DNA of 20,693 bases from a virus. Below the pieces are notes generated by a model that worked only from the letters and a program-made list of their open reading frames with translations, made no database searches and had not been told where the DNA came from. A program made the position numbers and the translations under genes. This document shows, in pieces, positions 2,197 to 20,278 of the stretch (the first letter of the stretch is position 1; each line of letters starts with the position of its first letter). The stretch covers positions 1 through 20,693 of the IMG/VR virus record IMGVR_UViG_3300045135_002561. One strand, 5' to 3'.

Positions 2197-3132
2197 ATGT
2201 CTGAATTTCTTTGGGTAGAAAAACATCGCCCTCGCAAAATCGAAGAATGCATTCTTTCTAAGTCTTTAAAGACCACCTTTGAATCAATCGTCAAAGGTGG
2301 TGAATTACCTAATATGATGTTTTATGGTACAGCAGGTGTTGGTAAGACAACTGTGGCTCGAGCATTATGTAATGAATTGGATTTAGACTATATTGTCATT
2401 AACGGATCTGAAGAAGGCAATATTGATACTCTTCGAGGCAAAATTAAACAGTTTGCTTCGGCAGTGTCTTTGACTGGTGGATACAAGGTAGTAATTCTCG
2501 ATGAGGCCGATTATCTTAATCCTCAATCTACGCAACCTGCTCTCCGCGGGTTCATTGAAGAGTTCTCTAATAATTGCCGTTTCATTTTAACATGTAACTT
2601 TAAGCAACGTATTATTGAACCTTTGCATTCTCGTTGTTCTGTTTATGATTTTTCGATTCCTTCTAAAGAAAAACCAGTCATTGCGGCTGGTTTCTTCAAA
2701 CGTTTGGTAAAGATCTTATCTGACGAAAACGTTGATTATGATCAGAAAGCATTGGTAAGTGTAGTTGAAAAACATTTTCCGGATTGGCGTCGTGTGCTTA
2801 ACGAATGCCAACGGTACAGCATCTCTGGTAAAATTGATGCCGGGGTTCTTATAAATATAGATAACGACAACATAAAAACTCTTATGACATCTCTTAAAGA
2901 AAAGAATTTTAAGACGATGCGTAAATGGGTAGTCGATAATATAGACGTAGAACCTCAATCCATATTTCGAATGATATATGACAATATGACTGATTATGCG
3001 CAGCCACAATGTATTCCACAAATTGTTTTAATCATTGCTGATTATCAATATAAGAATGCATTCGTGTGTGATCACGAAATTAACATGGTCGCATGTTTAA
3101 CTGAACTGATGGCGAATGTAGATTTTAAATGA
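2197..3132 (+). CDS. 44: Clamp loader ATPase, large subunit (T4 gp44-like)
   Basis: 311 residues (T4 gp44: 319). An AAA+ protein of the RFC/clamp loader type: Walker A GTAGVGKTT (44-52), Walker B VVILDEAD (98-105), sensor 1 LTCN (131-134) and the SRC arginine-finger motif (145-147). The N-terminal WVEKHRPRKIEECIL is typical of RFC-type loaders. Four gp44 with one gp62 load the gp45 ring onto primer ends. The last 16 or so codons are repeated, diverged, at the end of the next gene, an HNH endonuclease that appears to have been inserted directly behind or into this 3' end. The visible gene is intact. Confidence 0.97.
   Translation: MSEFLWVEKHRPRKIEECILSKSLKTTFESIVKGGELPNMMFYGTAGVGKTTVARALCNELDLDYIVINGSEEGNIDTLRGKIKQFASAVSLTGGYKVVILDEADYLNPQSTQPALRGFIEEFSNNCRFILTCNFKQRIIEPLHSRCSVYDFSIPSKEKPVIAAGFFKRLVKILSDENVDYDQKALVSVVEKHFPDWRRVLNECQRYSISGKIDAGVLINIDNDNIKTLMTSLKEKNFKTMRKWVVDNIDVEPQSIFRMIYDNMTDYAQPQCIPQIVLIIADYQYKNAFVCDHEINMVACLTELMANVDFK
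3081..3132 (+). repeat. 3' end of gene 44, upstream copy of a 52-base duplication
   Basis: This segment, through the TGA stop of gene 44, matches 3853-3904 at 45 of 52 positions by eye. Both copies are read in the same frame and encode VACLTELMANVD, then FK here and WK in the other copy. Apart from the F/W codon (two bases) and the first codon, the differences are synonymous or within the stop codon. Confidence 0.9.
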
Positions 3133-3161
3133 AAATAATTCCAAAAATTAATGCATACTTG

Positions 3162-3202: not shown

Positions 3203-3904
3203 ATGGCTATTCAAGAAGGTGCAATTTGGTGGAATAATGGTGAGATCAATAAAAGATCTGTTGATTGCCCAGGAGAAGGATTCGTTAAAGGCCGTAAAAG
3301 TTTTAAACGAAAACCACATTCAGATGAACATCGTAAAAAATTATCAAAAGCATTAAAAGGTAAAGCTGCTTGGAATAAAGGTTTGGTTGATTCAGTTTCT
3401 GAAGAGACCAGAAACAAGATGTCAGATTCAGCAAAGGCCCGCTCTAAAAGAGGTATCATGCCGGATAACACTGGTAATACTGCTTGGAATAAAGGCCTAA
3501 CAAAAGAAACTGATGAAAGAGTTAAAAAATACGCCAATACGCAGTACGGTCAACTGCGTATTGGAAATTACATTACAGGCAAAGATCACCCAAATTGGAA
3601 TGATAGTAAAAGCGAGTACCAAGAATATTCTTATAAGGTAATGAGATTATCAGAACATAATTATAAGAATAATAAAAGCATCATAAACCCTGAAGGTTTG
3701 CCTAGGGGTAAATGTGGTGTAGATGGTGTATATCAGTTAGATCATATTATACCTATACATTATGGATTTATAAATAATATACCGGTGGAAATCATCGCTG
3801 ATACATCCAATCTACAAATGCTATCTTGGGAAAGCAATCGCATTAAAAGTAATAACGTGGTCGCATGTTTAACTGAATTGATGGCAAATGTGGATTGGAA
3901 ATAA
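3203..3904 (+). CDS. HNH homing endonuclease with NUMOD3 motifs, fused to a gp44 tail
   Basis: 233 residues. Residues 8-31 (WWNNGEINKR, then CPGEGFVKGR) form a DNA-recognition module frequent in phage HNH enzymes. Residues about 38-60 (HSDEHRKKLSKALKGK, then WNKG) and 72-100 are NUMOD3-like DNA-binding motifs. The HNH nuclease follows: LDHIIPIHYG and, further on, NLQMLSWESNRIKSNN, giving the expected D-H, N and N/K pattern. The natural domain should end there, but the frame continues for about 14 residues identical but for one to the gp44 C-terminus and uses that stop. A late promoter precedes it; the ribosome site (AAAGAG) is modest. It is probably a mobile, free-standing homing endonuclease. 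Confidence 0.9.
   Translation: MAIQEGAIWWNNGEINKRSVDCPGEGFVKGRKSFKRKPHSDEHRKKLSKALKGKAAWNKGLVDSVSEETRNKMSDSAKARSKRGIMPDNTGNTAWNKGLTKETDERVKKYANTQYGQLRIGNYITGKDHPNWNDSKSEYQEYSYKVMRLSEHNYKNNKSIINPEGLPRGKCGVDGVYQLDHIIPIHYGFINNIPVEIIADTSNLQMLSWESNRIKSNNVVACLTELMANVDWK
3853..3904 (+). repeat. 3' end of gene 44, downstream copy of the 52-base duplication
   Basis: Second copy of the gene 44 end, providing the last codons and TAA stop of the HNH gene. It is joined to what looks like the original downstream flank (the 264-residue membrane protein gene starts 22 bases later), so this copy may be the ancestral end of gene 44 and the upstream one the copy brought in. That ordering is inference. Confidence 0.85.
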
Positions 3905-3926
3905 TAACCTAAGATAGGTATATTCC

Positions 3927-7288: not shown

Positions 7289-7798
7289 ATGTTATTACCA
7301 GATGTAACCTTTTACATGAGAGAAAGGTGTGATTCAATTGAAAGTGAGAATCCGTTTAAATGGGTTTATAAAACAACAAAAGATTTGTTTAGCAATAAAC
7401 GAGTTATCATTTTTGGACTTCCTGGAGCATTTACTCCAACATGTTCAAATTCCCAACTTCCCAATTATGAAAAAATGTATAATCAATTTATTGAAAAAGG
7501 CATTGACGAGATTTGGTGCACTTCAGTAAATGATGCTTTTGTTATGTACCAGTGGGGATTATCTCAGGGTTTAAAAAACGTAAAGTTATTGCCTGACGGA
7601 AATGGCGACTTTGCTGCAGGCCTCGGTATGCTAGTGAAAAAGAAAAATCTCGGATTTGGAGATCGTTCTTGGAGGTATGCAATGGAGGTAAATAATTTGG
7701 AAATTATTAATAAATGGGTAGAAGATGATTTAATGAATAACTGCCCAACCGATCCATACCAATGTTCAGCGCCTGAATACTTAATTGATCAACTATAG
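7289..7798 (+). CDS. Peroxiredoxin, Prx5-like
   Basis: 169 residues with the peroxiredoxin active site LPGAFTPTCS, peroxidatic Cys52. It is followed by stretches typical of the Prx5 type found in bacteria and in Prx-glutaredoxin hybrids: DEIWCTSVNDAFVMYQWG, VKLLPDGNGDFAAGLGMLV and LGFGDRSWRYAMEV. Two further cysteines near the end (about 152 and 159) and one at 77 could act as resolving cysteines. Such enzymes reduce hydrogen peroxide and organic peroxides using thioredoxin or glutaredoxin. The protein appears complete and catalytically intact. It sits behind the heat-shock group and is an auxiliary metabolic gene by context. TATGGAG precedes the ATG. Confidence 0.92.
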   Translation: MLLPDVTFYMRERCDSIESENPFKWVYKTTKDLFSNKRVIIFGLPGAFTPTCSNSQLPNYEKMYNQFIEKGIDEIWCTSVNDAFVMYQWGLSQGLKNVKLLPDGNGDFAAGLGMLVKKKNLGFGDRSWRYAMEVNNLEIINKWVEDDLMNNCPTDPYQCSAPEYLIDQL

Positions 7799-8153: not shown

Positions 8154-10685
8154 ATGGAATTTTACACAAATGTGGCACGGTACGGTAATTCTTTACTGTA
8201 TCGTGGCTACAAAAACAATCATCGTGTTCAAACACGAATAAAATTTAAACCTACTTTATTTGTACCTGATGCAAAGTCAGATGTTTTTGCTCTTGACGGT
8301 ATGGCCGTTTCTCCAGTGAAGTTTGATGACATGCGTGAAGCAAAAGACTTCATTCAAATGTACAAGGATGTACCGAACTTTAAAATCTATGGCAATACTA
8401 ACTATGTGACTCAGTTTATTCAGGAAACTTACCCAGGAGAAATCAAGTTTGATCCTGATGTTGTAAACGTTGGATATTACGACATCGAGGTAATGAAAAC
8501 AGACGACGGCTATTCAGATCCGGCAGATGCCAACAATCCAATCAATGCAATATGTTATCGAAATAACCAAGACGATAAGTACTACTTATGGTATCTTAAA
8601 GAATGGTCAAAAGAAAATTCAGAACTTGACTTAACTGGATTTGATGTAGAATATTTCTATTGTGAAACGGAAGCCAACTTACTACAATCATTTGTTGGTT
8701 GGTGGTCTTCATCAATGAATACGCCTGATGTTATAACTGGTTGGAACTGTCGATTTTTCGATACTCCTTATACAATTAATCGGATCGTTAAAGTTCTTGG
8801 CGAAGATGCCGCTATGAAGTTATCTCCTTGGGGTAAAGTAAATCAAAGAGCAGTTAAAGTTAACGGTCGTGAACAACAGTTTTACGAAATCGTTGGCATC
8901 GTTGAATTGGACTATCTTGAACTTTACAAAAAGTTTACATATTCACCACAAGAATCATACAAGCTTGACCACATTGCGCATGTTGAGCTCGGTGAAAAGA
9001 AATTATCTTACGATGAATATAAAGATCTTCAGAATCTGTATGAAGAAAATCCTCAAAAGTTTGGTGACTATAACATTAAGGACGTTGGCATTGTATATCG
9101 TTTGGACGATAAGCTTGGCCTGATTAACTTAGCTATGACACTTGCTTACCGCGGTGGTGTCAATTATGGTGACACATTAGGTACGACCGCAATATGGGAT
9201 TCAATCATTTATCGTGACCTGTGCGACAAAGGTATTGTTGTACAACCAAACCAAGATAAAATGAAAACGGATTTTGCTGGCGGTTATGTTAAAACACCGC
9301 AAGTTGGTATGCATGACTGGGTTGTGTCCTTTGATTTAAACTCTCTCTATCCGCATATCATTATGCAATGTAATATGTCGCCTGAAACGATTTGTGATGA
9401 TATAGTTCAACTTGTTGATGTTGATCGCTGCTTAGACAAAAAGAATACTCCTAATCCTTGGCCAAACGAAAGAGCAATGGCAGCCAATGGAACTACCTAT
9501 AAAAAAGATAAGCAAGGTATTATTCCTGCTATCATTGAACAGATTTATGCCGATCGTAAATCAACTAAAAAGCTAATGCTTGCGGCTCAGCAGGAATTGG
9601 TTAATGCCGATAAGTCCGATAAAAGATTAATCTACCAGCTTGAAAAGAAAGTAGCTACTTTGGATAATCAACAGATGGCCGCTAAAATTCTTATGAATAG
9701 TTTGTACGGTGCAATGGGTAATCGCTATTTCCGCCACTTTGATTTACGAATGGCCGAAGGCATTACTCTGACAGGTCAGTTGGCAATTCGTTGGGCTGAA
9801 AAAGCATTTAATAATTTTATGAATAAGATTGTCGGTACAAAGAATGAAGATTATGTAATTGCAATTGATACTGATTCAAACTATGTTTCATTTGGTCCAC
9901 TTGTGAAAAAGCTCGGATTGGATACTCGTCCAACAAAAGAAATTGTTAACATAATTGACAAGATGGTTAAAGATCAGTTTGAACCAATGATAGCAAAGTC
10001 ATATGAAGAATTGGCTAAACATATGAACTCCTATCAAAATAAAATGGTAATGGAACGTGAGGTCATTGCAGATAAAGGTGTATGGACTGCTAAGAAACGA
10101 TACATTTTAAATGTACATAACTCCGAAGGTGTAGAGTATAAAGAACCAAAGCTAAAGATTATGGGTATTGAAGCAATTAAGTCTAGTACACCGGCAGTAT
10201 GTCGTGATGCTATGAAGAATATGTTTAAAGTTATTATGTCAGGTTCGCAAAGCAATACTCAGAAAGCGATTGCACAATTTAAAAGCCATTTTAGTTCATT
10301 GCCGCCTGAAGAAGTTTCCTTTCCACGTGGAGTATCGGATGTAATTAAATGGAAAGACTCAAAGATGGTCTATAAGAAAGGCTGTCCTATTCATGTTCGC
10401 GGTGCATTACTTTATAACAATGTGCTAACTGACAAAGGACTTAAGGCATATGAAAAGATTCAGAACGGCGACAAAGTAAAGTTCTGCTATCTTCGCAAGC
10501 CAAATCCGATTAAAGAAAATGTTATTTCATTTCCGGATTACTTACCTTCTGAATTCCAATTACATAAGTATGTGGATTATGATATGATGTTTAACAAAAC
10601 CTTTCTTGATGCTATCACTCCGATTCTTGATGCTATCGGTTGGACGTCTGAAGAACAAGTATCTTTGGAAGATTTCTTTGGTTAA
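8154..10685 (+). CDS. 43: DNA polymerase, family B (T4 gp43-like)
   Basis: 843 residues, somewhat shorter than T4 gp43 (898). The 3'-5' exonuclease motifs are present: DIE (110-112), NCRFFD (198-203) and YNIKD (306-310). The polymerase motifs follow: A, SFDLNSLYPHII (D near 394); B, KILMNSLYGAMGN (about 512-524); C, IDTDSNYV (aspartates near 571-573). Motif A has His where T4 has Ser (SLYPS); I recall this histidine from marine T4-like polymerases. The last residues (VSLEDFFG) resemble the C-terminal clamp-binding peptide of T4 gp43. No intein or intron interrupts the gene. It has its own early promoter and the next promoter starts 5 bases after its stop. Confidence 0.98.
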   Translation: MEFYTNVARYGNSLLYRGYKNNHRVQTRIKFKPTLFVPDAKSDVFALDGMAVSPVKFDDMREAKDFIQMYKDVPNFKIYGNTNYVTQFIQETYPGEIKFDPDVVNVGYYDIEVMKTDDGYSDPADANNPINAICYRNNQDDKYYLWYLKEWSKENSELDLTGFDVEYFYCETEANLLQSFVGWWSSSMNTPDVITGWNCRFFDTPYTINRIVKVLGEDAAMKLSPWGKVNQRAVKVNGREQQFYEIVGIVELDYLELYKKFTYSPQESYKLDHIAHVELGEKKLSYDEYKDLQNLYEENPQKFGDYNIKDVGIVYRLDDKLGLINLAMTLAYRGGVNYGDTLGTTAIWDSIIYRDLCDKGIVVQPNQDKMKTDFAGGYVKTPQVGMHDWVVSFDLNSLYPHIIMQCNMSPETICDDIVQLVDVDRCLDKKNTPNPWPNERAMAANGTTYKKDKQGIIPAIIEQIYADRKSTKKLMLAAQQELVNADKSDKRLIYQLEKKVATLDNQQMAAKILMNSLYGAMGNRYFRHFDLRMAEGITLTGQLAIRWAEKAFNNFMNKIVGTKNEDYVIAIDTDSNYVSFGPLVKKLGLDTRPTKEIVNIIDKMVKDQFEPMIAKSYEELAKHMNSYQNKMVMEREVIADKGVWTAKKRYILNVHNSEGVEYKEPKLKIMGIEAIKSSTPAVCRDAMKNMFKVIMSGSQSNTQKAIAQFKSHFSSLPPEEVSFPRGVSDVIKWKDSKMVYKKGCPIHVRGALLYNNVLTDKGLKAYEKIQNGDKVKFCYLRKPNPIKENVISFPDYLPSEFQLHKYVDYDMMFNKTFLDAITPILDAIGWTSEEQVSLEDFFG

Positions 10686-10711
10686 ACCATTTACATTGTT
10701 AAATAAATGGT
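10686..10711. repeat. Inverted repeat overlapping the -35 of the nuclease promoter
   Basis: ACCATTTA (10686-10693) is perfectly repeated inverted as TAAATGGT (10704-10711), with a 10-base gap. The left arm covers the first four bases of the -35 box and the right arm reaches to within one base of the -10. As RNA from upstream it would form an AT-rich hairpin right after the polymerase stop codon. Confidence 0.6.
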
Positions 10712-10718
10712 GTATAAT
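10690..10718 (+). promoter_or_regulatory. Sigma70-like early promoter for the nuclease gene
   Basis: TTTACA (10690-10695), 17-base spacer, TATAAT (10713-10718) preceded by GGTG. Only 6 bases separate the -10 from the ATG at 10725, so the predicted transcription start falls on or next to the start codon, unlike the six other promoters of this set. Confidence 0.78.
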
Positions 10719-10724
10719 GGTATC

Positions 10725-11198
10725 ATGAATAAAGAAACAGCGATTAAAAAACAAGGAGAATTCGGCGAACGTTTGGTTCAAAAAATGTTTAAAGAAAAGT
10801 ATTCTTTAAATGTAATAAAAAACCCAGATGAATTTGGCCGATGGGATATGTTTGTTTATAACGATGATCATTCGTTTGCTCGAACAGTTCAAGTTAAAAC
10901 TGTTGCAAGATATTGCGCAAAAAATTATTTTGCACTTCATGGCGGAGTAACTGGTCGTGCAATACAAACAATGATTACCGCCGATTCATTAATACTTGTT
11001 TGTCGAAATCCTTGGGGATTTACAGATTATGAGTACGGTGGTAAAATATTAGAAGTGGTCGACCACGAAGGATACAAAGTAAATATAAAAGGTGAATATG
11101 TAATACCATCAACACCAAATTGTTTAACTGTTTTAGACGAACTTGATCCAAACGTCTTAAAAGAATTGGACGCATTTGATACAAGAAAACGGAGATAA
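10725..11198 (+). CDS. Putative PD-(D/E)XK-fold nuclease
   Basis: 157 residues from the ATG at 10725; an ATG at 10707 in the same frame lies within the promoter and would not be transcribed. The motif order fits a restriction-endonuclease-like fold: an N-terminal helix with QGEFGERLV (11-18), an aspartate in a short strand GRWDMF (D41), then VQVKT (Q56-V-K58), that is D-x14-QxK, where Q replaces the usual D/E. Related layouts occur in Holliday junction resolvases and repair nucleases. No function is proven; a role in replication or recombination is inferred from its place behind the polymerase gene. No ribosome site lies before the ATG. The gene ends 2 bases before the MazG-like gene. Confidence 0.7.
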   Translation: MNKETAIKKQGEFGERLVQKMFKEKYSLNVIKNPDEFGRWDMFVYNDDHSFARTVQVKTVARYCAKNYFALHGGVTGRAIQTMITADSLILVCRNPWGFTDYEYGGKILEVVDHEGYKVNIKGEYVIPSTPNCLTVLDELDPNVLKELDAFDTRKRR

Positions 11199-11200
11199 TT

Positions 11201-11611
11201 ATGAGTAAAGACTGGGCCCGTGACATTGACGATATGCATGCGCGATTTAATGTACATGAATGGGTAGAAAATAATCCTGAACTTCTTCAAAAGTTTTTGA
11301 AATTCCGTATGGCATTTCTCGATGAAGAACTAAATGAAACAAAACTTGCGGTTGAAAACAATGATCCTGAAGAAATCGTAGACGGTTTAATTGATCTTTG
11401 CGTTGTTGCAATTGGCACTCTTAATGCATTTGGTGTCGATGCACATAAGGCATGGGATGAAGTCCATCGTGCTAATATGAACAAACAAAAAGGCGTTAAA
11501 GAAAGTCGGCCTAATCCGCTCGGCCTACCTGATATGATCAAAATGCCAGATTGGATTCCACCTGACCATTCAGACAACCATGGAATATTCGGTAAAATGT
11601 TTGAAAAATAA
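11201..11611 (+). CDS. MazG-like nucleotide pyrophosphohydrolase
   Basis: 136 residues, mostly helical. The metal-binding signature of all-alpha NTP pyrophosphatases is visible: FLDEELNE (E42, E43, E46) followed by EEIVDGLIDLCVVAIGT (E58, D61, D65), the EExxE and ExxD pairs of MazG/HisE-type enzymes. The C-terminal segment (about 98-136) with NPLGLPDMIKMPDWIPPD is an extension. These enzymes hydrolyse (d)NTPs to (d)NMP and pyrophosphate; in phages they may adjust nucleotide pools or ppGpp-linked responses. The substrate cannot be read from the sequence. It is coupled closely to the nuclease gene upstream. Confidence 0.82.
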   Translation: MSKDWARDIDDMHARFNVHEWVENNPELLQKFLKFRMAFLDEELNETKLAVENNDPEEIVDGLIDLCVVAIGTLNAFGVDAHKAWDEVHRANMNKQKGVKESRPNPLGLPDMIKMPDWIPPDHSDNHGIFGKMFEK

Positions 11612-11646: not shown

Positions 11647-11751
11647 ATGGTATTGCTAGCAATTTGGGGCTATATCGACATCTTAAAGTTTATGATCAAA
11701 CCCGAAGGATGGGTAGGTCCATCACACGAGGGTAACCACGGACTTCTATAA
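11647..11751 (+). CDS. 34-residue small protein
   Basis: A short gene between the MazG-like and primase-fold genes. GGAG lies 6 bases before its ATG and its TAA overlaps the next ATG (TAATG), an arrangement typical of translational coupling. The product has a hydrophobic aromatic start (MVLLAIWGYIDILKFMI) and a polar tail with PEGWVGPSHEGNHG. It may associate with membrane or be a small regulatory peptide; I know no relative. Confidence 0.55.
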   Translation: MVLLAIWGYIDILKFMIKPEGWVGPSHEGNHGLL

Positions 11752-12692
11752 TGTATAGCTTAACTATCTTTAAAAGCATTTACGATAATAAGACCAACAA
11801 ACGTATGGACTTTTCCTCGTGGAATAAATTTGAAGATTTTCTTTATAAGCTATCAGAGCAGCCGCTTAAAAATAAAAAATCGGCTGTTCTCATCTCTCCA
11901 GCAACCTACGAGCCTGATACAACACGTAAGAATAAGAATGTGATTGAATGGGCTCGCTGGGCGGCTGTTGATGTTGACGACCATGAATTCAAAGGTGACC
12001 TAGAAAAAGAACTTCGATCTAGGTTCGGTAATTGGTATTTTGTTTGTTATAGTACCGCAAGCAGTACCGAAGATCGTCCTAAATTTCGTTTAGTATTTCC
12101 TCTTAAAGATGCAGTGCCAAATGAAAATATCAAAAAGTTTTGGTATGCATTACAAACTGAACTTGGCGAAATTGGCGATAAGCAAACTAAAGACTTATCA
12201 CGCATGTACTATATCCCAGGTTCATACGCCAATGCGCATAACTTTATTTTTACGAATGAAGGTTCTTTTATTGACCCTGATGTATTAATCCAAAAGCATC
12301 CAATGGAAGAACGTGCCAAAGGTAAAACATTCTTTGAAAGATTGCCTGAAGAAATGCAGCAAATGATTATTCAGCATCGCAAAGATCAGATGGAAAATAC
12401 AACAGTATCTTGGCAATCATATCGTGATTGTCCTTTCTTATCAAAAGGTATGTTGGATTCATATATTGAAACGACTCATGTTGCTGACACCGGTCGTTAT
12501 CACAAAATGTATCAGTTAATGGTACATATTGCAGGTAATGCAGTATCTTCTAAATATCCAATCACTCCTTACGAAATCGCTGACCTATGCCGACAAATTG
12601 ATATTGATACAGGTAACCGATATGAAGATCGACCGCTTGATGTTGAAGCTTCAAGAGCTATTGAGTTTGTTTATAAAAACGTCTCTATATAG
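11751..12692 (+). CDS. Primase-polymerase (AEP)-like replication protein
   Basis: 313 residues. An archaeo-eukaryotic primase-like core is suggested by: WARWAAVDVDDH (D74, D76), the DxD metal motif; CYSTASSTEDRPKFRLVFPL (99-118), matching the YST.S..P..RFRLV.P strand of phage and plasmid primase-like proteins; and TKDLSRMYYIPGS (146-158), matching their D..R....PG motif. The C-terminal half (about 185-313) is helical with a GRYHKMYQLMVHIAGNAV segment like PriCT-type or helper domains. T4 uses a DnaG-type primase (gp61), so this protein would be an extra or alternative priming, repair or gap-filling enzyme; activity is inferred. The ATG overlaps the preceding stop. Confidence 0.62.
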   Translation: MYSLTIFKSIYDNKTNKRMDFSSWNKFEDFLYKLSEQPLKNKKSAVLISPATYEPDTTRKNKNVIEWARWAAVDVDDHEFKGDLEKELRSRFGNWYFVCYSTASSTEDRPKFRLVFPLKDAVPNENIKKFWYALQTELGEIGDKQTKDLSRMYYIPGSYANAHNFIFTNEGSFIDPDVLIQKHPMEERAKGKTFFERLPEEMQQMIIQHRKDQMENTTVSWQSYRDCPFLSKGMLDSYIETTHVADTGRYHKMYQLMVHIAGNAVSSKYPITPYEIADLCRQIDIDTGNRYEDRPLDVEASRAIEFVYKNVSI

Positions 12693-13053: not shown

Positions 13054-13365
13054 ATGAAATACGATGAAGGTAAACCGCCTATACATTTAGTACCACCTGA
13101 GTGCATTATTGGTGCAGCTCGGGTTTTTGGCTTTGGTGCAGCCAAGTACGGCGAAAACAATTGGCGTCATGATGTAGGCAATACATCATACGGCCGTACC
13201 TATTCTTCAATTCAGCGCCACTTAAATGCTTTTTGGGCAGGCGAAGATATTGATCCAGAATCTGGTTTGAGTCATATTGATCATGCTATTACGCAACTTA
13301 TGATTTTAAAAATGCAAACAATTGAAGGTCCTGAAATGGATGACCGCTTTGGAGTTAAAGAATGA
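13054..13365 (+). CDS. dATP/dGTP pyrophosphohydrolase-like protein (DUF5664 type)
   Basis: 103 residues. The signature of the phage dATP/dGTP diphosphohydrolase N-terminal family is clear: KYDEGKP (2-8) with LVPPE, then FGAAKYGENNWR (27-38) and RHLNAFWAGEDIDPESGLSHIDHA (55-78). The family is an all-alpha NTP pyrophosphatase relative; the MazZ enzyme of Z-genome phages belongs near it. No PurZ-like gene is in this window, so there is no sign that it serves a 2-aminoadenine genome here. It probably trims purine dNTP pools. AGGAG precedes the ATG, and its stop overlaps the start of gene 42. Confidence 0.85.
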   Translation: MKYDEGKPPIHLVPPECIIGAARVFGFGAAKYGENNWRHDVGNTSYGRTYSSIQRHLNAFWAGEDIDPESGLSHIDHAITQLMILKMQTIEGPEMDDRFGVKE

Positions 13366-14060
13366 ATGTAAGTGATATTCGTAATCATTTTATTAATGAA
13401 CTTAAGAATGAAAATTTCGTGGTTGATCGCAATGGTGGTAAGACTATTGAACTGTTAGGCGCTTCTTTTGAAGCTGATGAATCTGCCATTTTCGGTACAG
13501 TCAACCGTGAATATGTTAAAGCAGAAATTGATTGGTATCGCAAAATGTCGACAAACATTAATGACATTTACACGAATGGTCGTGAACCTCCTGCTGCATG
13601 GAAAATGACAGCTAATGATAAAGGCGAAGTAAATTCAAATTACGGATACTTAGTTTTTAGTATGGATAATTATGATCAGTTTAATAATGTAATTGAAGAA
13701 CTAGATCGTAATCCTTATAGCCGTCGTGCTTCAATGATATACACACGACCATCAATATGGAATGATTATAATGAAAACGGTAAAAATGATTTCATCTGCA
13801 CCAATGCCGTAACATATTATATCCGTAATCGTCAAGTGCATTGCGTTGTTCAAATGCGAAGCAACGATGTTGTTTATGGCTACAAAAATGATCGTGCATG
13901 GCAAAAATATTTGCTTAATCTCGTTGCTTATAATCTTAACATTAAAAACCCAACTGCAACTGAAACTTTTAACCAAAGCGAAATTCTAACTGCCGGCAAA
14001 ATTTATTGGCAGGTCCAGAATTTACACGTATACGAAAAACATTTTGACTTGGTGAAATAA
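13362..14060 (+). CDS. 42: dCMP hydroxymethylase (T4 gp42-like)
   Basis: 232 residues (T4: 246). A thymidylate-synthase-fold enzyme that matches T4 gp42 along its length: FVVDRNGGKTIELLGASFEADE, EVNSNYGYLVFSMDNYDQ, MIYTRPS, DFICTNAVTYYIRN with catalytic Cys146, and MRSNDVVYGYKNDRAWQKY. Asp177 in the KNDRAW segment corresponds to T4 Asp179, which replaces the Asn of thymidylate synthase and favours dCMP over dUMP, so hydroxymethylation of dCMP is the best reading. This predicts hydroxymethylcytosine in the phage DNA. It overlaps both neighbours by 1-4 bases and is followed by dCMP deaminase. Confidence 0.93.
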   Translation: MNVSDIRNHFINELKNENFVVDRNGGKTIELLGASFEADESAIFGTVNREYVKAEIDWYRKMSTNINDIYTNGREPPAAWKMTANDKGEVNSNYGYLVFSMDNYDQFNNVIEELDRNPYSRRASMIYTRPSIWNDYNENGKNDFICTNAVTYYIRNRQVHCVVQMRSNDVVYGYKNDRAWQKYLLNLVAYNLNIKNPTATETFNQSEILTAGKIYWQVQNLHVYEKHFDLVK

Positions 14061-14555: not shown

Positions 14556-16049
14556 ATGTCTATTAATTTAATTATTCCAGCCGCAGGTGCCGCTACGAGG
14601 CTTCGGCCTCTTTCTTCTAATACGTCTAAAGTAATGGTCCGTGTTAACGGTAAACCATGCTTAGACTATATTCTTGAACATGCTTCAAAGAATGCTGAAC
14701 TGTCTGAGATCGTTATTGTTGATGGTCAATTTAATGATATCCGCGAATATTGTTCGAAGCGCCATCCTAATGTTAAGTTTGTAAATCAACCATCGCTTAA
14801 CGGTCCACGTGATGCAATTGCTCTTGGTATGAATGCTCTTGACGATCCAACAAAGCCTGTTATTGTTTGGTTAGGCGATGCAATTATTCTTGAAGAAAAC
14901 CTGCCTTTAGGTACTGACTTCTTATTATGTAAAGAAGTTGATAATCAGTCAGCATGGTGTATGTGGGACGGTGAAAAGTATTATAATAAGCCAAGTGGTG
15001 TAATTAACAATGCAGTTGCTCTTGTTGGCCTCTATTCCTTTAAAAATGGGAAAAATGCCCAAAATGCATTCAATTGTGTGGATCTATACGATATCTCATA
15101 TGCCCTCGAAGTTTACGGCAAATACGAACGTGTTGTGACCAATTTGTGGTATGATATTGGTGATTTACCTACATATTATAAAACATGTGCAGAATTACTG
15201 AATTTGAAGAGTAGAGCCTTTAATAATATTTCGTACGATGCCGACCTTTGTACTATTACCAAGACACCTGACTATCATGATCCGATTTCAGTTGAAACAT
15301 TACATAACGAACGTACATGGTATAATAACTTAACACCAGAGCAATCTTTATTTGTTCCTCGTGTCCTGCCTTCAAAGACTAATCTTACGATGTCATATGA
15401 AAGTGGTACACTGCTATCTGATTTGATGTTATATGAAGATCTTTCGGAATCGGCATGGGAATACATAATTGATAAAGTCTTTCGTATTAAGTTAAAGTAT
15501 TTTAACAATCAATGCGATGAACCATCATTCATACATAACTTCTATGATTATTCAAAGCGCATTTGGCTTGATAAGACAAGAGATCGTCTTGATAATACTA
15601 CATTCAAAGAGTCGTATGTTTGCAAGTTAAAAGAGATTGCCGTTAATACTTATCGTCAAACTAAACCAATCAGCGGTATGCACGGCGATTTACACTTTGG
15701 TAATATTCTTTATAATCAGCAGACCGATCAAATTAAACTGATTGATCCTCGCGGCGAATATGGCCATCACGTTGGTACTTGCGGTGATAACCTTTATGAC
15801 TTCGCTAAACTTGCGCATGATCTCTATCACGGCTATGGTGCTATGGTTAACAACACGGCTCCAAATGAAGTAGTTAAAAAGATTTTTAAACGCAAGCTTA
15901 AAGAGTATGACTTACCAGTGGACATAATTATTGATGCAGGTGTACTGCTAATTGCTACATGCATTCCATTGCATTACGATGATAAGAATCGCCAAAAAAG
16001 ATTTAAAGATTACGTAGAAGGATATCTTAATGAAAAGTATAGTATTTGA
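14556..16049 (+). CDS. Bifunctional sugar nucleotidyltransferase and APH-type kinase
   Basis: 497 residues, two domains. Residues about 3-215 are a sugar-1-phosphate nucleotidyltransferase: IIPAAGAATRLRPLSSNTSKVMVRVNGKP (7-34) is the nucleotide-binding signature, with Ser-Lys in place of the usual Pro-Lys; WLGDAI (Asp108) is the metal site and LWYDIGDLPTYYKT (197-210) the typical closing motif. Residues about 265-497 are an aminoglycoside-phosphotransferase/choline-kinase fold: HGDLHFGN (376-383, catalytic Asp378) and LIDPRGEYG (metal Asp397). Such fusions occur in bacterial capsule loci and would phosphorylate and activate a sugar or small alcohol. It heads an operon with a HAD phosphatase and a glycosyltransferase. 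The substrate is unknown. Confidence 0.85.
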   Translation: MSINLIIPAAGAATRLRPLSSNTSKVMVRVNGKPCLDYILEHASKNAELSEIVIVDGQFNDIREYCSKRHPNVKFVNQPSLNGPRDAIALGMNALDDPTKPVIVWLGDAIILEENLPLGTDFLLCKEVDNQSAWCMWDGEKYYNKPSGVINNAVALVGLYSFKNGKNAQNAFNCVDLYDISYALEVYGKYERVVTNLWYDIGDLPTYYKTCAELLNLKSRAFNNISYDADLCTITKTPDYHDPISVETLHNERTWYNNLTPEQSLFVPRVLPSKTNLTMSYESGTLLSDLMLYEDLSESAWEYIIDKVFRIKLKYFNNQCDEPSFIHNFYDYSKRIWLDKTRDRLDNTTFKESYVCKLKEIAVNTYRQTKPISGMHGDLHFGNILYNQQTDQIKLIDPRGEYGHHVGTCGDNLYDFAKLAHDLYHGYGAMVNNTAPNEVVKKIFKRKLKEYDLPVDIIIDAGVLLIATCIPLHYDDKNRQKRFKDYVEGYLNEKYSI

Positions 16050-16383
16050 TCTTGATGATACAATTTGCTATCCTAACCATGATGCTAAAGATACGCATAC
16101 TAAATATGCATTAGCTAAACCTAATAAAAAAGTAATTGAATCTATTTACAAACTTAAAGAATTAGAGTATAATATTATTATTCACAGTGCAAGGCGTATG
16201 GTTACGCATGATGGTAATATAGAAAAAATTATAGCCGATGTTGGTAAAGTAACTGAAGATTGGCTAAAAGAACATAACGTTGTTTATGATGAACTTATTT
16301 TTGGAAAGCCGTATTCTTCTACCTATTATGTAGATGATAAGGCAATGAATCTTGAGGACTTTTATCAATGGGTAAACAAATAG
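16030..16383 (+). CDS. HAD-superfamily phosphatase, capsule-biosynthesis type
   Basis: 117 residues with all HAD motifs: FDLDDT (Asp7 nucleophile, Asp9), HSAR (Ser53), FGKP (Lys93) and VDDKAMN (Asp102, Asp103). The short length with almost no cap resembles the small phosphatases in capsule and lipopolysaccharide loci. It probably removes phosphate from the sugar or alcohol handled by the preceding enzyme. The start overlaps the upstream gene by 20 bases, with AAGGA before the ATG, and its end overlaps the glycosyltransferase gene by 16 bases, so these three genes are translationally coupled. Confidence 0.85.
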   Translation: MKSIVFDLDDTICYPNHDAKDTHTKYALAKPNKKVIESIYKLKELEYNIIIHSARRMVTHDGNIEKIIADVGKVTEDWLKEHNVVYDELIFGKPYSSTYYVDDKAMNLEDFYQWVNK

Positions 16384-17603
16384 CATTTGCCAAGCTCGGT
16401 AAATCAATTAAATTCGTAACAGCATATTCTCCAATTGGCGGTGATAATGAAGCACCGTCAATGTTGCGTATATTAGCAAACAATAATCCTGACATAACAT
16501 TTCATATCATTGGTCGCTCTGACTTTAATCGTTTAACTGACGAGCAACGAGTTGACTTATTTCCATACGATAATGTAAAAGATGCATTTGATGGACATAA
16601 AGGTCCTGCAGATCCAGACCGTGTTATTCATTATTTTGATGATCTTGGTTTTCAACCTGATGCATTTATAATGATGATGGGACAAGTAGGCAATGTTTCA
16701 ATTCCTAATCGAATTTGGGGTCAACGTGATCCGACTAAAACTGTCTCAATTATTGATATGACCAAAAATTATACCACACCTATTACCAAGTGGTTAAATG
16801 ATAATACAGATATGAAAGTGATTGAAATTTGTAATGATCCTCGGTATACTTTAAAACAAAGTAAAGACTGTTTTGCTGATCCTGCAATTTCGTTATCACA
16901 GTATACGTATGAATACGAACGTGAAGCTTCACGGGATTATGAAGATCAAACTCGTGTTAAAACAAAAGTACAAGCTAAATATGCTGAAGCCGAAAAGATA
17001 TTCCTATATGATCGTAAGAAGGTAGCTGCGAATGCAGAAGGACGTGATACTAATTTTATGGTTGTTTTAAATGAAGGAACTCCTTCAAGATACAATCTTT
17101 TAAAAGAATGGGTTTTAAACTCAGTCGACGATGTTGAAATTTATGGCAAGTGGGACCATGAAAATGCTTTAAGCGATAGCAGGTTTAAAGGATCAATGCC
17201 TCTTGAAGATTTACAGAAAAAATTAAAGAATGTTCGTTCGACATTTATCATCCCTATTGCAAAAGGTTGGACAACATCAAAGTATATCGAAATGATTCAT
17301 GCTGGAGTTATTCCGTTTTTCCATCCAACATATGACGATCAAGATAATTTAAAAGTACCTAGTTGGCTTCGTCCTAAAGATCCTAAGCAAATGGTGCAGG
17401 CTGTGGAAATGCTTAAAGACGATAAGATATATAATAAGTTAATTAAGGAACTGCAAGATCAGTTTTGCAGACCAGAATATTATGATGGCACTAGACTTAA
17501 TGAAATTGTTATGACTCACGTGATTGAAAACTATTCAGCACCTGACTTATCTAAATACGAAAAACAAACAATTGAAACATTTGATTTAACAAACTTTTTT
17601 TAG
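16368..17603 (+). CDS. GT-B fold glycosyltransferase, candidate DNA glycosyltransferase
   Basis: 411 residues. An N-terminal Rossmann-like part (SIKFVTAYSPIGGDNEAPSM, 13-32, then ITFHIIGRSDF) and a C-terminal one from about 229: NFMVVLNEG, EIYGKWD (257-263), GSMPLEDLQKKLKNVRSTFIIP (275-296) and GWTTSKYIEMIHAGVIPFFHPTYDD (300-324), the usual donor-binding half with its E...G.IP pattern. This layout resembles T4 beta-glucosyltransferase, where a matching stretch runs GKIPMNMVSEKNSQAIAALI and then RVWETMASDAVML. The similarity is of fold and order, not close identity. Coupling to the activating kinase/nucleotidyltransferase and a nearby gene 42 suggests that the acceptor is hydroxymethylcytosine DNA; a glycan or protein acceptor cannot be excluded. 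Confidence 0.72.
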   Translation: MGKQIAFAKLGKSIKFVTAYSPIGGDNEAPSMLRILANNNPDITFHIIGRSDFNRLTDEQRVDLFPYDNVKDAFDGHKGPADPDRVIHYFDDLGFQPDAFIMMMGQVGNVSIPNRIWGQRDPTKTVSIIDMTKNYTTPITKWLNDNTDMKVIEICNDPRYTLKQSKDCFADPAISLSQYTYEYEREASRDYEDQTRVKTKVQAKYAEAEKIFLYDRKKVAANAEGRDTNFMVVLNEGTPSRYNLLKEWVLNSVDDVEIYGKWDHENALSDSRFKGSMPLEDLQKKLKNVRSTFIIPIAKGWTTSKYIEMIHAGVIPFFHPTYDDQDNLKVPSWLRPKDPKQMVQAVEMLKDDKIYNKLIKELQDQFCRPEYYDGTRLNEIVMTHVIENYSAPDLSKYEKQTIETFDLTNFF

Positions 17604-19222: not shown

Positions 19223-20278
19223 ATGAGCTTAATGGCAAAACTTAAAAAGAATAGTCGAATTGATCAGACGGCTATTCTTTCTGAATCAAAATTCTTTTCA
19301 GATAAAGACATGGTAACAACCGATGTGCCAATGATCAACGTTGCATTATCTGGTTCCGTTGACGGTGGTCTTAGCCCAGGTCTAACCGTTCTTGCTGGAC
19401 CTTCTAAACACTTTAAGACATCGTTTGCTTTACTTATGGCATCGTCATATTTGAAAAAGTATCCCGAGGCAGTAATGCTATTTTATGATTCGGAGTTTGG
19501 ATCTCCGCAGGCATACTTTGAAACATTTGATATTGACACAAGCCGAGTATTGCATACACCGATTACCGATGTTGAAAAACTAAAGTTTGATTTGATTAAT
19601 CAGCTTGAGGCAATTGAGCGTGGTGAAAAGGTCATCGTTGTTATTGACTCAATCGGTAACCTTGCATCCAAGAAAGAATTGGAAGATGCGATTAACGAAA
19701 AGTCAGTTGCAGATATGTCACGTGCTAAGGCTCTTAAAGGTCTATTCCGTATGACTACTCCATATCTTGCGATGAAAGATATTCCATTGTTGGCTATTAA
19801 CCACACATACACCGAGATGGGCCTATTCCCTAAAGCTGTGGTTTCAGGCGGCACAGGCATTTACTATTCGGCCGATAACATTTGGATTCTTGGACGGCGT
19901 CAGAATAAAACAGGCACTGAAGTAACAGGATATGACTTTGTTATCAATGTTGAAAAATCGCGTTATGTCAAAGAAAAGTCTAAGATTCCTATCAGTGTAT
20001 CGTGGGATGCAGGTATTGAAAGGTATAGTGGTTTAATGGATCTTGCACTTGCTCTAGGTTTCATTGTCAAGTCAGGCTCTTGGTATCAGGTAATTGATTT
20101 TGAAACTGGCGAAATTGAACAGAAAAAGCTAAGAGCAAATCAGATTACCAATGAGTTTTACGATAGTCTCCTAAAGAATGAAAAGTTCAAAGATGCAATT
20201 AAGCAGCAGTATACGATCGGCTATAAGTCTCAGTTATCTGAAGATTTTCTAGAAGAAATTGATTTACAAGAAGGATAA
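19223..20278 (+). CDS. uvsX: UvsX RecA-like recombinase
   Basis: 351 residues (T4: 391). RecA core with Walker A GPSKHFKTS (59-67), the T4-type variant of the P-loop, and Walker B VIVVIDS (137-143). FYDSEFGSPQAYFETFDID, DMSRAKALKGLFRM, LLAINHTYTEMGLFPKAVVSGGTGIYYSADNIWILGRRQ and FVINVEKSRYVKEKSKIPI are all characteristic of UvsX. The C-terminus is shorter than in T4 and acidic (LEEIDLQEG). UvsX forms filaments on single-stranded DNA with UvsY and drives recombination-dependent replication and repair. It lies just before a small gene and helicase 41, with which it works. Confidence 0.97.
   Translation: MSLMAKLKKNSRIDQTAILSESKFFSDKDMVTTDVPMINVALSGSVDGGLSPGLTVLAGPSKHFKTSFALLMASSYLKKYPEAVMLFYDSEFGSPQAYFETFDIDTSRVLHTPITDVEKLKFDLINQLEAIERGEKVIVVIDSIGNLASKKELEDAINEKSVADMSRAKALKGLFRMTTPYLAMKDIPLLAINHTYTEMGLFPKAVVSGGTGIYYSADNIWILGRRQNKTGTEVTGYDFVINVEKSRYVKEKSKIPISVSWDAGIERYSGLMDLALALGFIVKSGSWYQVIDFETGEIEQKKLRANQITNEFYDSLLKNEKFKDAIKQQYTIGYKSQLSEDFLEEIDLQEG

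Follow-up and report, generated by a model that had tools for sequence, protein, structure and literature searches.

The locus described here raises the question of which enzyme primes the replication fork in a T4-type phage that encodes an archaeo-eukaryotic primase (AEP)-like protein near its DNA polymerase. In the textbook model of the T4 replisome, gp41 and gp61 together make up a single primosome, and a review counts gp61 among the genes of the T4 core genome (PMC2993671). The DNA analyzed (the whole 20,693-base stretch of IMG/VR record IMGVR_UViG_3300045135_002561, hereafter the window) is a T4-type replication region in which gp43, gp44, gp45, and UvsX are all present:

875–1552, + strand: gp45-type sliding clamp, 47% identical to the annotated clamp of phage C48C1
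2197–3132, + strand: gp44-type clamp loader, 67% identical to the annotated clamp loader of C48C1
8154–10685, + strand: gp43-type DNA polymerase (phrog_262, 1061 bits)
11201–11611, + strand: MazG-like nucleotide pyrophosphohydrolase (phrog_671, E 1.4e-23; PF01503, E 8.6e-13)
11647–11751, + strand: 34-aa ORF between MazG and the AEP, read from the sequence, whose TAA overlaps the ATG of the AEP gene (TAATG)
11751–12692, + strand: open ORF with an ATG start, encoding a likely standalone AEP-type primase of 313 aa (P0001), from profile matches, predicted fold, and conservation
13362–14060, + strand: thymidylate synthase-family enzyme (phrog_160, E 9e-50; PF00303)
19223–20278, + strand: UvsX-like recombinase (phrog_97, E 2.6e-86)

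A C-5 cytosine methyltransferase is also encoded in the window, while a gp41-type helicase was not identified within its 20,693 bases, whose end falls shortly behind UvsX. The TAATG overlap between the 34-aa ORF and the AEP start suggests possible translational coupling. An Rfam scan of the window returned no family at the gathering score.

Several further genes accompany this region. A short protein at 13054–13365 matches the dATP/dGTP diphosphohydrolase N-terminal family (PF18909, E 9e-29), a nucleotide-pool gene near the AEP, and the product of the ORF at 14556–16049 joins a nucleotidyltransferase domain (PF00483) to a second half with a weak kinase/phosphotransferase-like match, with two additional ORFs behind it (16030–16383 and 16368–17603). 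A Redoxin-family protein is encoded at 7289–7798 (PF08534, E 2e-20), and C48C1 also has a gene annotated as a peroxyredoxin. Directly behind gp44, the ORF at 3203–3904, which we take to be HNH/NUMOD-like in appearance, has at its end a close duplicate of the gp44 C-terminus, and a 55-nt direct repeat (3081–3135 and 3853–3907) is 85% identical between its copies. This ORF looks like a homing endonuclease insertion carrying a copy of the 3′ end of its target.

Profile searches with P0001 recovered phrog_9765 (“DNA primase”, E 8e-51), followed by phrog_256 (“DNA helicase”, 4e-10), phrog_3228 (“replicative helicase-primase”, 7e-8), and phrog_2135 (“DNA primase”, 4e-6). The first of these, which contains proteins of C48C1 and of the Vibrio phages V6Aob and henriette 12B8, is the same family as P0001, and its members are annotated as DNA primase in the deposited records of C48C1 and V6Aob and in the RefSeq entry for henriette; as far as these records show, the label was given by similarity, and they state no link to the loss of gp61. 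A DnaG/gp61 identity for P0001 was rejected, with no row for the gp61 family phrog_47 up to E 1. Searches against Pfam and NCBIfam gave no significant family, and no PDB chain was matched by sequence. BT4734-like_N, an AEP-related domain, was matched in seven of 28 family members at a best E of 0.0076, too weakly for use.

A model of P0001 built from 24 window and IMG/VR sequences reached a pLDDT of 88.2 and a pTM of 0.60. Foldseek comparison of residues 1–190 with the PDB returned the AEP domain of the cyanophage S-2L PrimPol (6zp9) at E 1.2e-5 and probability 1.00, the sole PDB match at E ≤ 0.001, and the same chain gave the best structural alignment (Z 9.0, rmsd 3.6 Å, 146 residues aligned). 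The next structural matches were the CAPP Prim-Pol (Z 7.1) and RepB′ (Z 6.4 and 6.0), at Z values under 8 that may be chance; AEP chains lead both fold searches of residues 1–190, and many lower rows are also AEPs. In a library of predicted viral structures 82 matches were found at E ≤ 0.001, and primases, VirE proteins, and helicase-primases are named among the matches listed. On this predicted fold, P0001 is very likely a member of the AEP superfamily, in agreement with the AEP core proposed in a first-pass annotation of the window. The C-terminal part, modeled alone (residues 189–313; pLDDT 86.7, pTM 0.80), had no PDB match at E ≤ 0.001. Its best structural match was to spidroin domains (Z 4.9), taken as a generic helical arrangement, and primase helix bundles and PriCT domains were absent among the matches listed for it.

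Within P0001, the predicted domains and motifs are as follows:

11751–12302, + strand: predicted AEP catalytic domain, residues 1–184, the range aligned to S-2L PrimPol 6zp9
11970–11978, + strand: motif I, D74-V75-D76, putative metal ligands by analogy, with D74 and D76 invariant
12081–12089, + strand: motif II, K111-F112-R113, with Arg where most AEP families have His
12177–12203, + strand: motif III/IV region, D143 to R151, with D143, D148, and R151 invariant
12348–12689, + strand: C-terminal helical domain, approximately residues 200–313, predicted in a separate model, with an invariant C227

The three motifs from which the AEP core had been proposed are present in the order given there: DVD (D74-V75-D76), RPKFRLVFPL (residues 109–118), and D148..R151....P156-G157. 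For conservation analysis, 205 loci including the window yielded 204 AEP proteins, of which 161 are distinct and all 161 are full length. Residues D74, D76, K111, R113, D143, D148, R151, and P156 are identical in 161/161 of these relatives, and therefore the motifs are not a chance occurrence. C227 is likewise invariant (161/161), whereas G157 is not conserved and is mostly Ala in the alignment. Measured from stop to stop, the 161 ORFs span 282–385 aa; therefore none is fused to a helicase, and assignment of P0001 to the fused phage primase-helicase class (S-2L, NrS-1, and VirE type) was rejected on the length of all 161 ORFs (≤385 aa).

The sequence alignment of P0001 with S-2L PrimPol falls short of significance (its score is matched or exceeded by 297 of 2,000 shuffles), and hhalign gives the pair a probability of 0.2 percent, so the residue correspondences that follow are mapped by eye. 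The D143–R151 stretch parallels S-2L D146–R154, and R113 occupies the usual AEP motif II His position; a conserved His is absent from the motif II region of the relatives, in which K111 and R113 are invariant. Most AEP families have His in motif II, and Gln, Tyr, Arg, or Lys is found in some (PMC5862659 section 8). According to the same section, the His is not universal across the PrimPol-PV1 supergroup and DR0530-like AEPs, the latter having Arg/Lys. The roles suggested for K111 and R113 in motif II are drawn by analogy from PMC8065100, which describes the functions of the S-2L residues, and from PMC5862659. The third metal ligand of P0001 is likely D143 or D148. D148 lies in the D..R motif of the first-pass annotation, and the equally invariant D143, aligned by eye with S-2L D146, would fit at least as well. 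The invariant R151 is a candidate counterpart of the conserved motif IV flange Arg of the PrimPol-PV1 supergroup.

The genomic neighborhood of the AEP was compared across 201 records, after removal of four repeated contigs. On the same strand and ≤4 kb upstream of the AEP, gp43 is found in 138/145 records with ≥4 kb of upstream sequence, a set chosen for carrying the AEP that consequently does not measure its loss rate; the seven records without it include the three Vibrio loci searched. Within 10 kb downstream, UvsX is encoded in 40 and gp41 in 35 of the 48 records with ≥8 kb of downstream sequence. In 123 of the 192 records with ≥700 nt upstream, a MazG gene lies directly upstream, ending between −60 and +200 nt relative to the AEP start, and gp43 precedes MazG in 128/130 records holding both. 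Of the two operon partners initially proposed for P0001, MazG is thus retained, while the nuclease-like ORF at 10707–11198 (no Pfam hit, weak PHROG hits) was found only in the window and at no other AEP locus searched. In the Vibrio phages the AEP adjoins a helicase gene instead, which is Dda-like in V6Aob. The constancy with which the AEP is placed in the replication core points to a core role at the fork.

The co-occurrence of the AEP with T4-type replication proteins was assessed with PHROG profiles for gp61 (phrog_47, DnaG-type), gp41 (phrog_19), and the AEP (phrog_9765). No gp61 was detected in any of 71 AEP-carrying records (0/9 in a search with T4 positive, 0/14, and 0/48), most of the IMG/VR records among them being fragments outside which gp61 could lie; the window itself is a 20,693-base fragment, and the counts concern its relatives. 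Much of the weight therefore falls on the named phages and on a few records >90 kb. Among the negative carriers are C48C1 (circular, 156 kb), V6Aob, and henriette 12B8, all three described as complete, as well as IMG/VR records of 114,689, 135,206, 151,660, and 177,535 bases. The same profile was found in 7/7 T4-type phages without the AEP (T4, P-SSM2, Syn9, S-PM2, KVP40, HTVC008M, and, weakly, RM378), and phrog_9765 was found in 0/7 of these gp61-bearing phages versus 8/8 AEP carriers. Of 14 control genomes, phrog_47 matched ten, which are the ten bacteria, indicating that the profile reaches ordinary DnaG.

Other replisome components were also searched for. The gp41 family was found in 20/23 AEP carriers tested. 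The deposited annotation of C48C1 includes a polymerase, clamp, clamp loader, SbcCD-type (gp46/47-like) nuclease, SSB, DnaB-type helicase, and UvsY, and its sole annotated primase is the AEP. Two additional markers were set aside. The DnaG zinc ribbon PF01807, tried as a second gp61 probe, matched 0/14 and was uninformative because all five gp61-positive phages included were missed (T4, Syn9, P-SSM2, HTVC008M, and KVP40). The gp59 loader, considered as a marker of an altered primosome, is variable (4/8 AEP carriers and 5/7 controls), so nothing specific about primosome assembly follows from it.

Relatives of P0001 abound in environmental contigs but are seldom met among cultured phages. Of 50,697 phage records, 24 match P0001, and only six match over ≥80% of the protein: C48C1, V6Aob, 2.058.O, 3.058.O, and two records of henriette 12B8. 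P0001 shares 48% identity with the C48C1 protein over its full length and about 30% with those of the Vibrio phages. By the same type of phage-record search, gp43 was matched in 2,592 records and gp61 in 2,338. IMG/VR scans recovered at least 592 confirmed AEP relatives among 600 matched stretches in one case and at least 526 in the other. Cultured collections, with their six records, hide this family. Among genome contigs, 10/52 pattern-matched stretches encode relatives; all ten are titled as MAG or bin sequences, and for this reason no host was inferred. Relatives in bins named after diverse bacteria are probably phage contigs binned with their hosts. Separately, an uncharacterized 328-aa protein of cyanophage S-TIM5 (H6WG13) matches the AEP model at E 6e-12 and may represent another standalone AEP, this one from a large cyanophage.

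The simplest reading of these data is a non-orthologous replacement of gp61, with the AEP priming alongside gp41. P0001 is likely a standalone AEP replicative primase of a T4-type replisome, occupying the place of the DnaG-type gp61. We consider it quite likely that the family provides the sole fork primase, and reasonably likely, with somewhat more reserve, that it works in partnership with gp41. The observations behind this reading are the homology to annotated phage primases and helicase-primases, the predicted AEP fold, the invariant candidate catalytic residues, the replication-core synteny, the lack of detectable gp61 in the tested carriers, and the presence of gp41 in most of them.

The same protein could instead be an auxiliary PrimPol whose task is re-priming or gap filling where the DNA is damaged or modified, with host DnaG priming the fork together with a phage or host helicase. 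Such roles exist, as in lesion re-priming by human PrimPol (PMC5862659), and the methyltransferase and thymidylate synthase-family enzyme of the window raise the possibility of modified DNA. A gene of accessory function would be expected to be gained and lost repeatedly, yet the AEP is syntenic with gp43 in 138/145 records, its candidate catalytic residues never vary among 161 relatives, no gp61 was detected alongside it in any of the 71 carriers tested, and the gp61-bearing T4-type phages are without it (0/7). We therefore regard an auxiliary role as unlikely. The initial proposal of a second priming system beside gp61 is not supported, given that gp61 was not detected in these 71 carriers and that the replication-core position is conserved, and nothing was found that ties the protein to damage tolerance or to modified DNA.

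It is less probable still that a second phage primase, either a very divergent gp61 or another enzyme, escaped detection and primes the fork, the AEP being one of two. Profile searches can miss divergent proteins, many of the records are fragmentary, and phage 0305phi8-36 has both an AEP and a DnaG (PMC2147016). Against this, phrog_47 is sensitive enough to match the ten bacterial controls and the distant RM378 primase, and it finds nothing in C48C1, V6Aob, henriette 12B8, or the four IMG/VR records of 114–178 kb. The AEP superfamily is functionally broad, and together with the motif II Arg in place of the usual His (a position assigned by eye) this breadth leaves a very slight probability that P0001 is an AEP-fold nucleotidyltransferase that does something other than priming, such as simple gap filling as a polymerase or regulation. 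Its closest annotated relatives, however, are phage primases and helicase-primases, and its genomic position is the replication core.

If P0001 is the fork primase, its N-terminal AEP domain would bind two metal ions through D74, D76, and D143 (or D148), while K111, R113, and R151 would hold the triphosphate of the incoming (d)NTP. A separate gp41-type hexameric helicase would unwind the fork, and the AEP domain would lay short primers on the lagging-strand template, with both catalysis and primer type assumed here. These primers would then be extended by gp43 with the clamp and clamp loader. The C-terminal helical domain (~200–313) may act as a template- or initiation-binding module, by analogy with helix-bundle domains in other AEPs, and the MazG enzyme, whose gene mostly lies immediately before that of the AEP, may serve to sanitize the (d)NTP pool. 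Should P0001 be a true PrimPol, its primers may consist of DNA instead of RNA.

To place the replacement in the history of these phages, gp41 phylogenies were examined. In a tree of 63 of the 81 gp41 sequences recovered (short and identical sequences and a second T4 copy were left out), AEP carriers fall in two places, with the marine group near cyanophages and the Vibrio phages apart, a pattern that would require either two swaps or a transfer. A single clade of AEP carriers was not rejected (p-AU 0.2) with 25 rows picked by hand, and in that 25-row tree T4 and KVP40, both long branches, fall among the marine AEP rows. In a tree of 45 rows, picked by hand from the 63 with RM378 dropped, the marine AEP group has a support of only 48, the careful search being incomplete. 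The swap may have happened more than once, in the marine clade and in the Vibrio phages.

Phage AEPs, including those beside DnaB helicases, replicative PrimPols, and the “DNA primase” label of this family are already known. The S-2L PrimPol, the best fold match of the P0001 AEP domain, also has an acid-x-D-D motif I and is 737 aa long. It carries a VirE-type domain at its C-terminus and is the only polymerase of that phage (PMC8065100), whereas P0001 is standalone beside a B-family polymerase and, by eye, has Arg for the motif II His. The NrS-1 PrimPol combines an AEP with a helix-bundle domain (PMC8718748) and is a weak fold match (Z 5.4, rmsd 14.0, 182 residues); unlike P0001, it includes a fused helicase domain and serves as the replicative polymerase in its own right (PMC8718748 and PMC7102993). 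AEP-ATPase fusions occur in jumbo siphoviruses (PMC7824862). In phage 0305phi8-36, an AEP-type primase with an adjacent DnaB is proposed to work with this separate DnaB-type helicase, but unlike here that phage also has a DnaG primase and DNA polymerase III (PMC2147016). T4 gp61 itself presumably has the same replisome role as P0001 while belonging to the unrelated DnaG-type family. No report of an AEP substituting for gp61 among T4-type phages was found in the open-license PMC literature, as searched mostly by title and the start of the abstract, and an earlier notice may exist.

At its broadest, the proposal is that a large, largely uncultured marine T4-type lineage uses a hybrid primosome of the DnaB-type gp41 helicase and a standalone AEP wholly replacing gp61, with swaps perhaps repeated and MazG co-opted as a coupled pool-cleaning partner; we give this full version an even chance. 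Should a lineage of hundreds of IMG/VR contigs have no primase other than the AEP, primase identity would be exchangeable within an otherwise conserved fork, and these phages would offer a direct test of how DnaB-family helicases cooperate with a primase of unrelated structure.
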